Of a DNA stretch of 64,000 nucleotides, positions 30,392-34,579 are shown piece after piece. Both the position numbers and the translations under genes were made by a program. The notes under the pieces are model-generated. The model was not told where the DNA came from and made no database searches. It saw only the letters and a list, made by a program, of their open reading frames with translations. The DNA comes from Hydrotalea sandarakina (GTDB lineage: Bacteria > Bacteroidota > Bacteroidia > Chitinophagales > Chitinophagaceae): NCBI RefSeq assembly GCF_003254115.1, contig NZ_QKZV01000003.1:248001-312000 (forward strand). Direction: 5' to 3'. Each line of letters opens with the position of its first letter. Position 1 is the first letter of the stretch.

Positions 30392-32500
30392 TTAATTTAA
30401 TGTTACCGATACAACCATTCCTTTTGAAATGGATTCTCCCGGCATTACTGATTGATTGATTACTTTACCTACACCTTTTACATTTACTTTTAAACCCATA
30501 TTGCCACATAAATACATTACATCTTTTAACCCCATACCGGTTAAGGCGGGCATTTTATTCAATTGCACACTTTTAGAATATAACTTTGCACCTGCTTTTG
30601 TTCCTGCAATTCCAACCCAGTCATCAACAATATTCGCTGAATCCTTTGTTTTTATTTTCAATGATTGTACCAAGGTTAATGCATCATTTTTATATCCTAT
30701 ATAATTAAAATAGCTACTGTCAATTGCAGAAGCAAACATTTGCGTATTATTTTGCTTTACGTATAAAGTATATAACCTGTCGGCAATTTCTTTGAATACA
30801 ACACCTGCCACATCTGCACCATAAAAAACTTTAGCAAATGGTTTGTTTTTTATTACCACTATACAAGTGTATTGTGGATGATTAGCCGGGAAATAACCGG
30901 CAAAAGAAGACTGATATACTTTATTGGCATATCCCTTATTTCCCTCGGCCACAAGTGCAGTTCCGGTTTTTCCTGCAACGGGATAGGGTGAGTTTTTAAA
31001 TAATTTTTTAGCTGTGCCATTAATGCAAACCCCTTCTAAACTTTCTTTTACTTGTTTTAAAGTACTGTTGCTGCAAATCTTATTAATCAAAACTTCCGGT
31101 TCAATTTTTTTCAATACTCTCCCTTCCTCAGTTATTGCATTCACCAAATAGGGTTTCATCATTTTACCATTATTGGCAATGGCATTGTATAATGTAAGTG
31201 TTTGCAATGGTGTAACCTCAACATTATAGCCAAAAGCCATCCATGGCAAAGTGGTAGCACTCCAATTTTTACTACCGGGCTTAATAATGGTTGAATTACG
31301 TTCACCTACTAAATCAATTCCGGTTTTTTCGTCTAATCGAAAATTGTGTAATTGTTTAATGAAAGCGGATGGATTATTCCTATAAGCTTCTAAAGCCATT
31401 TCGGCCATACCAACATTCGAACTTAATTCAAAAGCTTGCTTAGCAGTAACTTCATAATTCCCATGTTGCTCGGCATCTAAAACTGTTCTGTCTGCAATTT
31501 TGAGAGTTCCACCATGCAAGTTCACCGTTTGATTGAGGGTTATTTTTTTATCTTCCAACAAAGCCATCAGGGTGGCCAACTTAAATGTTGAACCGGGCTC
31601 AGATGCATTTATGGCATAATTATAATTTTCATAATAATTACCATCTTGCCCTTTTCCCAGATTAGCCATTGCTTTTATTTTGCCTGTACTTGTTTCCATT
31701 ACAATAGCGCAACCATGCTCAGCATCATTTTGAACCAACATTTTCAATAATGCATTCTCGGTAATTTCTTGGATTAGAACATCTATATTGGTAATAATAT
31801 CTTTCCCATTAACTGCTTCCGACTCATATGCGCCATCAACAGGAACACCCACGCCACCGGCAATAAAACGAACCAACCTTGTTCCTGATTTACCTTTTAA
31901 AATGCTGTCGTAGCTTAATTCCAAGCCCACCTTAAATGAATCTCTATCTAAACCAATGGTTCTAAAAGCCAACATTTTATATGGATTTAACCGAATACTT
32001 TTATCATCGGCAATAAAACCACTTTTATTTTTACCTAACCGAACAAGCGGAAAACTTTTCATGGCTGTATATTGCTCGTATGAAATATTTTTTTTCAGCA
32101 AATAATACCTGAATTTTTCTTTATAGCCTTTTATCAAAATGCGCTTGTATTCTGCAGCAGATGCATCTTTAAACAAATTAGCCAAAGCAATGCTTAAAGA
32201 ATCAATGTTTTCTCTAAACCTTTTACCATTTTTTTCCCTTAATCCTTCTGCACCAAAATCAACATAAATATCAAACTGAGGAATACTTGTACTTAACATT
32301 TCACCATCTTCACTGTAAATGGTACCTCTTTCTGCATCTGTTTCTACATAACGTTCATGTAAACTGTCACTTAAGCTTTTCCAGTACTTCCCTTGCACTT
32401 GTTGAATGTAAACAGCTTTGCCAAAAATGAAGACACCTGCCACTACTACTAAAATGTAGATTAGGTAAACTCTCCATAATATGTCGTTTTTTACATTCAC
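30392..32500 (-). CDS. division transpeptidase PBP (FtsI/SpoVD-like) with C-terminal PASTA domain
   Basis: This monofunctional class B penicillin-binding protein cross-links septal peptidoglycan. It has a single N-terminal membrane helix (about 10-30), a PBP dimer domain, and a transpeptidase domain with SxxK at about 304-307 (STFK), SSN at about 359-361 and KTG near 511. A PASTA domain follows at about 640-702. At 702 residues it is longer than E. coli FtsI, which lacks PASTA. Its location right after the FtsL-like gene makes it the FtsI of this organism. Confidence 0.96.
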   Translation of the reverse strand: MNVKNDILWRVYLIYILVVVAGVFIFGKAVYIQQVQGKYWKSLSDSLHERYVETDAERGTIYSEDGEMLSTSIPQFDIYVDFGAEGLREKNGKRFRENIDSLSIALANLFKDASAAEYKRILIKGYKEKFRYYLLKKNISYEQYTAMKSFPLVRLGKNKSGFIADDKSIRLNPYKMLAFRTIGLDRDSFKVGLELSYDSILKGKSGTRLVRFIAGGVGVPVDGAYESEAVNGKDIITNIDVLIQEITENALLKMLVQNDAEHGCAIVMETSTGKIKAMANLGKGQDGNYYENYNYAINASEPGSTFKLATLMALLEDKKITLNQTVNLHGGTLKIADRTVLDAEQHGNYEVTAKQAFELSSNVGMAEMALEAYRNNPSAFIKQLHNFRLDEKTGIDLVGERNSTIIKPGSKNWSATTLPWMAFGYNVEVTPLQTLTLYNAIANNGKMMKPYLVNAITEEGRVLKKIEPEVLINKICSNSTLKQVKESLEGVCINGTAKKLFKNSPYPVAGKTGTALVAEGNKGYANKVYQSSFAGYFPANHPQYTCIVVIKNKPFAKVFYGADVAGVVFKEIADRLYTLYVKQNNTQMFASAIDSSYFNYIGYKNDALTLVQSLKIKTKDSANIVDDWVGIAGTKAGAKLYSKSVQLNKMPALTGMGLKDVMYLCGNMGLKVNVKGVGKVINQSVMPGESISKGMVVSVTLN

Positions 32501-34240: not shown

Positions 34241-34286
34241 GTTATTGTTTGTGGTTTAAAATTACCATTTATTTACACAAAATAAC

Positions 34287-34302
34287 ACTTTTTCCCACTT
34301 TA
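34287..34302 (-). promoter_or_regulatory. possible MraZ operator
   Basis: On the minus strand the sequence GTGGGAAAAAGTG lies about 50 bases upstream of mraZ and contains a TGGGA unit like those bound by E. coli MraZ. Only one clear copy is seen here, whereas E. coli uses spaced repeats, so this is a guess from position and core. Confidence 0.3.
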
Positions 34303-34326
34303 AATGCAAATTTTGGGCTTTTCAAT

Positions 34327-34335
34327 TTATCCACA
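34327..34335 (+). promoter_or_regulatory. perfect DnaA box
   Basis: TTATCCACA, identical to the consensus DnaA-binding 9-mer. Confidence 0.65.
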
Positions 34336-34417
34336 GATGAAAATGAACGAAAAGCCTTATTCAGCCTATATTTGCTGCGAAAAACGAAACAAAACCCATT
34401 AATAAAATGTTAATTAG

Positions 34418-34426
34418 TGTGGATAA
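34418..34426 (-). promoter_or_regulatory. perfect DnaA box, opposite orientation
   Basis: TGTGGATAA on the plus strand reads TTATCCACA on the minus strand. It is 82 bases from the first perfect box and is preceded by an AT-only stretch. Confidence 0.65.
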
Positions 34427-34450
34427 GCAATCAAAATTTGTGAATTAACA

Positions 34451-34459
34451 TGTGAATAA
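34451..34459 (-). promoter_or_regulatory. near-perfect DnaA box
   Basis: TGTGAATAA reads TTATTCACA on the minus strand, one mismatch from consensus and within the accepted TTWTNCACA pattern. It has the same orientation as the box at 34418, with 24 bases between them. Confidence 0.5.
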
Positions 34460-34579
34460 GGAAGAAAACTGCCTAAAATTCAAACAACAACTCGCAGGTT
34501 CAATGAAAAAGGCCAATATGGAAAGAAAAACTTTTGATTGTATAATGCGGCGTAACCTCATACCAAAAAACCAAAGTGC

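Follow-up and report, generated by a model that had tools for sequence, protein, structure and literature searches.

The gap between mraZ and queA holds a cluster of sequences that resemble DnaA boxes, which raises the question of whether it serves as the chromosomal origin of replication (oriC) or as a DnaA-controlled promoter of the dcw (division, cell wall) genes. Here we analyse the window, a stretch of 64,000 nucleotides (contig C3, positions 248001–312000, of genome G000, which places the gap at 282.3 kb on C3), in the context of 79 genomes of the family. Comparison of these sequences points, as the best reading, to a regulatory element of several parts that belongs to the mraZ (dcw) promoter and is probably linked to DnaA. 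Table 1 lists its parts; the names of mraZ, queA and the dcw genes are presumptive assignments that we made from sequence and gene order. The closest named matches of queA come from Terrimonas, Parafilimonas and other Chitinophagaceae, at no more than 55% identity, which makes Chitinophagaceae the probable family of this DNA.

Table 1. The element upstream of mraZ and its flanking genes, in window coordinates
Feature	Start	End	Strand	Description
mraZ	33779	34240	-	First gene of the leftward dcw (division, cell wall) cluster; ORF of 153 aa; matched in 78 of 79 family genomes
MraZ-type operator	34264	34299	-	CAC at 34276, 34286 and 34296 and CAT at 34266; 10-bp period; GTGGGaaaaaGTGTTattttGTGTAaataaATGGT on the mraZ strand
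Box 1	34327	34335	+	TTATCCACA; far end 95 bp from the mraZ start
Spacer	34336	34407	.	Weakly conserved; sets the distance from box 1 to the array, 91 bp start to start here
Array unit a	34408	34416	-	Degenerate, TGTTAATTA on +; family consensus TGTGaAT at the same place
Array unit b	34418	34426	-	Exact TTATCCACA; 34 of 78 genomes have an exact TTATCCACA in the array window
Array unit c	34439	34447	-	TAATTCACA, two mismatches; direct reading
Array unit d	34451	34459	-	TTATTCACA, fits TTWTNCACA
queA	34580	35827	+	ORF; divergent neighbour; element does not need queA

A clustered pair of boxes

The window contains two exact copies of TTATCCACA, box 1 and array unit b, and both lie in the gap. An earlier note on this DNA had placed them, in opposite orientation, at 34327 and 34418; direct reading reproduced these coordinates and strands, and also found TTATTCACA at 34451, the weaker TAATTCACA at 34439 and the A/T-only stretch beside the second box (11 bp, 34398–34408) where the note had them. 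In the rest of the window the note, by a scan that it called non-exhaustive, had noticed only single 8-of-9 matches near 30871 and 36605; this proved too low, as 17 one-mismatch matches fall outside the gap cluster. In total, the window has 20 one-mismatch matches compared with 23.1 expected, and 72 of 100 shuffles reach 20; this total is at chance level, so it is the clustering of the boxes, and not their number, that carries the signal. Genome-wide (3.27 Mb; 3,268,305 bases in 30 contigs), there are 28 exact copies of TTATCCACA versus 56 of its reversed control, and the pair in the gap is the sole instance of two exact boxes less than 1 kb apart. At the genome rate, the probability of at least two exact boxes in 339 bp is about 4 × 10−6 (by hand arithmetic, for a single place fixed in advance). 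The clustered pair is not due to chance.

Conservation upstream of mraZ

We scanned 79 genomes of the family and matched mraZ in 78 of them, representing 77 genera (the exception is G012). The upstream sequence of mraZ was examined in each of the 78 genomes, a set that replaced a first look at 27 gaps from which 12 queA loci with no mraZ in reach had been left out. Box 1 was scored as TTWTCCACA on the strand opposite to mraZ with its start 65–95 bp before the gene, and an array site as TTATNCACA or TTTTCCACA on the other strand 120–259 bp before it, both windows having been chosen after the 78 regions had been viewed. By these strict patterns, box 1 is present in 60 of the 78 genomes (missing in 18) and never on the wrong strand, an array site in 52 (missing in 26; one genome with a site on the wrong strand), both in 41 and neither in 7, counts that are not independent because all 78 genomes belong to one family. 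The corresponding means in 300 first-order Markov resamples were 0.08 genomes for box 1, 0.57 for the array and 0.00 for both, with maxima of 2, 5 and 0. Sites in the array window number 71 on the array strand (−) versus 1 on the + strand, and 140-bp windows farther upstream (260–819 bp; 77 or 78 genomes) hold 3, 0, 0 and 0 on the array strand and 1, 0, 1 and 1 on the other. When one mismatch to TTATCCACA is allowed, box 1 and an array site are each found in 67 of the 78 genomes (wrong strand, 0 and 3, respectively).

The commonest form of box 1 is TTTTCCACA (36 genomes), a sequence other than the strongest E. coli-type box; TTATCCACA itself occupies the position in 24. Both the place and the strand of the boxes are as expected of a DnaA-controlled promoter, for which consensus boxes (TTWTNCACA being the DnaA-box consensus) are kept upstream at a conserved position, and the arrangement at the dcw promoter is apparently under selection. 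The earlier note had named loss of the boxes in close relatives as one of several joint signs against its reading; most genomes of the family retain them.

The most conserved block in the family alignments is the MraZ-type operator, which consists of four GTG repeats with a period of 10 upstream of mraZ, the fourth being ATGG in this gene; a strict regular expression for its core matched 53 of 78 genomes. Read in window orientation, the family consensus runs from this operator, CACAAAATAACACtTTTTCCCACt, to TTTtTCCACA, a weakly conserved spacer and then TGTGaAT...tGTGgAtAA.ctgTgaAtaa.

The arrangement is also specific to this place. The opposed pair TTWTCCACA-N60..90-TGTGGAWAA, a pattern designed after inspection of the 27 gaps, matched 18 of 79 genomes, once in each and in all 18 directly upstream of mraZ (by comparison of coordinates); the strict pattern had no match in the other 61, and its reversed control had none in any of the 79. 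A tandem pattern, TGTGNATNNNTGTGGAWAA, was found at 5 places in 11 genomes, all 5 upstream of mraZ (control, 0), and had no match in 6 of the 11, including the present genome (array unit a is degenerate here).

Spacing and helical phase

The distances from box 1 to the array units cluster near 81, 91–93, 101–103, 112 and 124 bp, with a best period of 10.5 bp (vector strength 0.64; 98 distances in 54 genomes). In a jitter control in which the array of each genome was moved by −5 to 5 bp, the mean vector strength was 0.13 and the maximum 0.37, and 0 of 1,000 trials were as strong. Box 1 and the array are thus held in helical phase, and the conserved position, strand and phasing next to mraZ support the second option of the earlier note, a dcw promoter that would be linked to DnaA.

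The main rival is that box 1 and the outer array are extra sites for MraZ or for another regulator, and that they look like DnaA boxes through a shared GTGG core. It is the main rival because MraZ of E. coli is reported, in the available passages of PMC4446571, to bind a site that overlaps the DnaA box of mioC; furthermore, both arrays at mraZ consist of GTG repeats spaced by roughly one turn of the helix. The spacing separates them. CAC-to-CAC spacing in the MraZ-type operator is 10 in 133 of 141 intervals, whereas the 122 intervals between units of the outer array include 30 of 10, 36 of 11 and 23 of 21 bp, a distribution that fails a strict 10-bp period when the array is tested as an MraZ operator; a spacing of mainly 10 or 11 as opposed to a strict 10 indicates two different kinds of array. 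Sequence variants give a divided answer, in counts that are inflated by the shared ancestry of the genomes: among one-mismatch variants, 40 of 43 at box 1 fit TTWTNCACA and only 3 of 43 vary outside positions 3 and 5, but 26 of 60 in the array lie outside the degeneracy of DnaA boxes and 34 of 60 fit (at random, 4 of the 27 possible changes would fit). Box 1 also lacks the AAA that precedes GTG in the Mollicutes MraZ site as given in the accessible part of PMC8475190 (AAAGTG[T/G]), and the same 9-mer forms a cluster at an origin-like locus in genome G018 (see below). We consider sites for MraZ or another factor an unlikely account of box 1 and the array.

Linkage to mraZ

mraZ and queA lie within 4 kb of each other in 50 genomes and do not in 25; the remaining 3 have no mapped full-length queA. 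Where the genes are together, box 1 is present in 40, the array in 34 and both in 26 of the 50 genomes. Where they are apart, box 1 and the array are each present in 17 of 25 and both in 14, although in 20 of these 25 cases the genes are on different contigs and some may be assembly breaks; in the 5 genomes in which they are apart on one contig, box 1 and the array are each found in 4. Upstream regions of lone queA genes carry no box in 5 of 6 cases and one box in the sixth. Because the element is usually retained at mraZ in genomes whose queA lies elsewhere, it belongs to mraZ, as would be expected of a promoter element that follows the gene it regulates.

This linkage bears on a further alternative, which we regard as rather improbable: that the site is a locus for DnaA titration or reactivation (of the datA, DARS or Bacillus DnaA-box cluster type) that merely happens to be at mraZ and affects the timing of initiation and not dcw transcription. 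Opposed boxes with an array would suit a DnaA complex, and box clusters are few per genome; in G018, at least 3 exact boxes per 250 bp occur at only two places, the nadA locus described below and the region upstream of mraZ. However, the element travels with mraZ at a conserved distance from the start of that gene, a constraint that titration would not require. Its separation from nadA is variable: 388 kb in G018, about 600 kb in G022 and about 3 Mb in G055.

Beyond the family, we surveyed 52 loci comprising the best mraZ matches only, with weaker matches left out. Of 26 loci from the order's other families, 8 have box 1 (TTWTCCACA, 65–95 bp), namely L246–L250, L259, L260 and L265, at 74–92 bp. 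Of the other 26 loci, from outside the order, L273 alone has it, at 78 bp. Sites of the array pattern occur in 2 of 26 loci in each group, none of which has box 1. Only the family has so far yielded the full element.

Likely location of the origin

A cluster of boxes in an AT-rich gap (GC 0.31) is what suggested an origin at this place, and cumulative skew has a local minimum there within the 3-kb stretch that was profiled. The wider skew speaks against it. Each of the 27 samples of 10 kb taken from contig C3 between 30 and 425 kb, on both sides of the gap, has negative GC skew (the first 30 kb of the contig are mixed), so that the skew minimum that the earlier note proposed as a check does not appear as a sign switch in the sampled skew. 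Third-codon-position skew on C3, averaged over the genes of both strands, is negative in 12 of 12 computable stretches from 60 kb on, with the genes of the two strands differing in sign in several stretches and two stretches having too few genes of one strand.

Two single-contig genomes allow the skew to be followed along the chromosome. In G022, sampled skew stays below zero over the stretch that starts at 2.31 Mb, passes the contig end and reaches 0.64 Mb, and it is above zero between 0.64 and 2.15 Mb (+0.001 at 0.69 Mb); mraZ–queA (41 kb) is inside the negative arm, with negative skew on both sides, and the switch at about 640 kb coincides with nadA (639 kb). In G018, sampled skew is negative to 2.386 Mb and positive from 2.40 Mb, and five exact boxes, accompanied by further one-mismatch boxes, lie within 208 bp at 2,375,680, adjoining nadA and about 2 kb from mnmG (genes that we take to be nadA and mnmG from their sequences). 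Two features of G018 favour an origin at mraZ: the lasting switch falls 10–25 kb past the nadA cluster and not exactly on it, and skew near mraZ (2.763 Mb) averages −0.020 over the 20 kb to the left and +0.087 over the 20 kb to the right. Skew is already positive at 2.40, 2.45, 2.55 and 2.70 Mb, before mraZ, however, and the sign change at mraZ sits inside an otherwise positive arm; such local dips would be an effect of the divergent genes. The nadA cluster in G018 is built from the same 9-mer as the boxes in the gap and is larger than the cluster at mraZ, whereas in the present genome the exact-box pair is unique to the mraZ gap.

The present genome has nadA at 306.9 kb on contig C4, where skew goes from −0.030 to +0.031 (6.8 kb were sampled beyond it, to the contig end), and the region upstream of nadA contains TTATCCACA, TAATCCACA and two copies of TTATTCACA, that is, four box-like sites of which one is exact. 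No origin could be placed from the skew of G055 or of two samples of G066, where noise was too great, and a clear switch was absent from G004. We reject the gap as oriC, an assignment that is now very improbable, because skew keeps its sign there and an origin-like locus sits upstream of nadA. The nadA region is likely to be the origin of the family, and the candidate stretches (C4, about 306480–306800, L216, in G000; 9636–9952 of L196 in G018) are AT-rich, contain DnaA boxes, have a skew switch at or near them and are not beside dnaA; this region is a place to seek oriC in the family. An objection to an origin in the gap that the earlier note had raised, namely that genes to its right would run head-on to a fork, falls away once the gap is not oriC; by the usual skew rule, these leftward genes would run with the fork.

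The mraZ element resembles E. coli-type oriC arrays in layout. The E. coli origin has head-to-tail boxes with 1–2-bp gaps and an opposed box, and the element likewise has head-to-tail boxes with such gaps that face an opposed box; unlike those arrays, it has no skew switch and there is a separate origin-like locus at nadA. The neighbourhood of dnaA was also considered and rejected as the place of the origin: dnaA is on another contig, C2, in this genome, and among 11 dnaA loci, TTWTNCACA is absent from 6 and TTATNCACA from 9, with such boxes present in L063 and L064. The distance between dnaA and mraZ is about 18–20 kb in L062 (G055) and L063 (G068), and the two are far apart in other genomes, such as G018 and G022. 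Another close pair of exact boxes, 34 bp apart, lies at 672148 and 672182 on C1 of G022, about 32 kb from nadA. The strand of TTATCCACA is biased: in G018, most copies that precede the nadA locus are on + and most that follow it are on −, and on C1 of the present genome 10 of 10 are on +; the 9-mer may track the direction of replication.

Least credible of all is that chance boxes persist through shared ancestry of the intergenic sequence: the 78 genomes are of a single family, but they span 77 genera, most positions of the gap that are not in a motif have low information content whereas the boxes carry more, and the genome-wide pattern scans matched only the place upstream of mraZ.

Proposed regulation of the dcw cluster

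With a promoter element as the preferred reading, ftsL and mraZ of B. subtilis are relevant because they share an operon, and binding at ftsL in ChIP may be a precedent. DnaA is placed at division-gene promoters in the available passages of a review (PMC8203912), at ftsZ of Caulobacter and, by ChIP, at ftsL of B. subtilis; the review has no occurrence of the name mraZ, and the main text of PMC4447404 names none of mraZ, yllB and ftsL. The mraZ element is like these cases in that DnaA would act at a division-gene promoter, and unlike them in its target, the head of dcw, in its occurrence across a Bacteroidota-type family and in its fixed layout of box and array beside a MraZ-type operator. DnaA-controlled promoters are already a known kind, of which the element would be a variant. 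By analogy, the three DnaA boxes upstream of ftsZ in E. coli, which the same passages of the review describe as irrelevant to ftsZ transcription, are a real caution for a DnaA reading.

The inner repeats resemble the autoregulatory operators of MraZ (E. coli, Mollicutes and Burkholderia cenocepacia), in that four GTG with a period of 10 closely precede mraZ, an arrangement shared with B. cenocepacia, for which the accessible part of PMC7761207 gives 7-nt repeats and 3-nt spacers. The outer array differs from such operators in its spacing, mainly 10 or 11, in being on the other strand and in lying about 100–170 bp farther upstream. The E. coli mioC promoter is alike in bringing together DnaA and MraZ sites at a gene tied to division (PMC4446571, in the passages available; the sites at mraZ are predicted). 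It differs in that mioC adjoins oriC and its sites overlap, whereas those at mraZ are separate and far from the origin-like locus. The passages of PMC10081379 on the mraZ–ftsZ operon of E. coli mention no DnaA site, and among the titles and abstract openings listed, which in one case were 15 of 22,113 records and came from a collection that leaves out most subscription papers, we found no description of DnaA control of mraZ in Bacteroidota.

These comparisons suggest the following mechanism. MraZ would repress from the four-repeat operator beside its own start codon. DnaA would bind the single strong box 1 just upstream of this operator, and also the head-to-tail array about 80–125 bp beyond, which faces box 1 in a fixed helical phase; on both, it would probably form a small filament and loop the short spacer. 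Transcription of dcw could then be set by the amount or nucleotide state of free DnaA, which would couple the production of division and wall proteins to the initiation of replication. Activation by DnaA is slightly favoured over repression because box 1 lies clear of the MraZ-type operator and on the upstream side of the presumed promoter. In its full form, as a two-input switch in which a DnaA filament and loop on the phased array would act together with MraZ at its operator to set transcription of the entire division and cell-wall cluster across the Bacteroidota-type family, the proposal is a tentative one, to which we give somewhat less than even credence. If true, the switch would be a direct wire from replication initiation to cytokinesis. 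More generally, conservation of the element next to mraZ suggests a possible direct link between replication initiation and the synthesis of division proteins, and the element, which dozens of genera have at the dcw promoter, could be mutated to test that link.

Further features of the gap

Within the spacer, an inverted repeat at 34344–34375 is visible by eye in some relatives (for example, L004 and L039). A conserved spacer hairpin is not supported, as family-wide inverted-repeat scores are little above those of shuffled sequence (mean best score 4.95 versus 4.25; at least 9 in 2 of 78 genomes). Between the MraZ-type operator and box 1, at 34307–34314, lies a conserved CAAATTTT (AAAATTTG on the mraZ strand), which may be part of the mraZ promoter.
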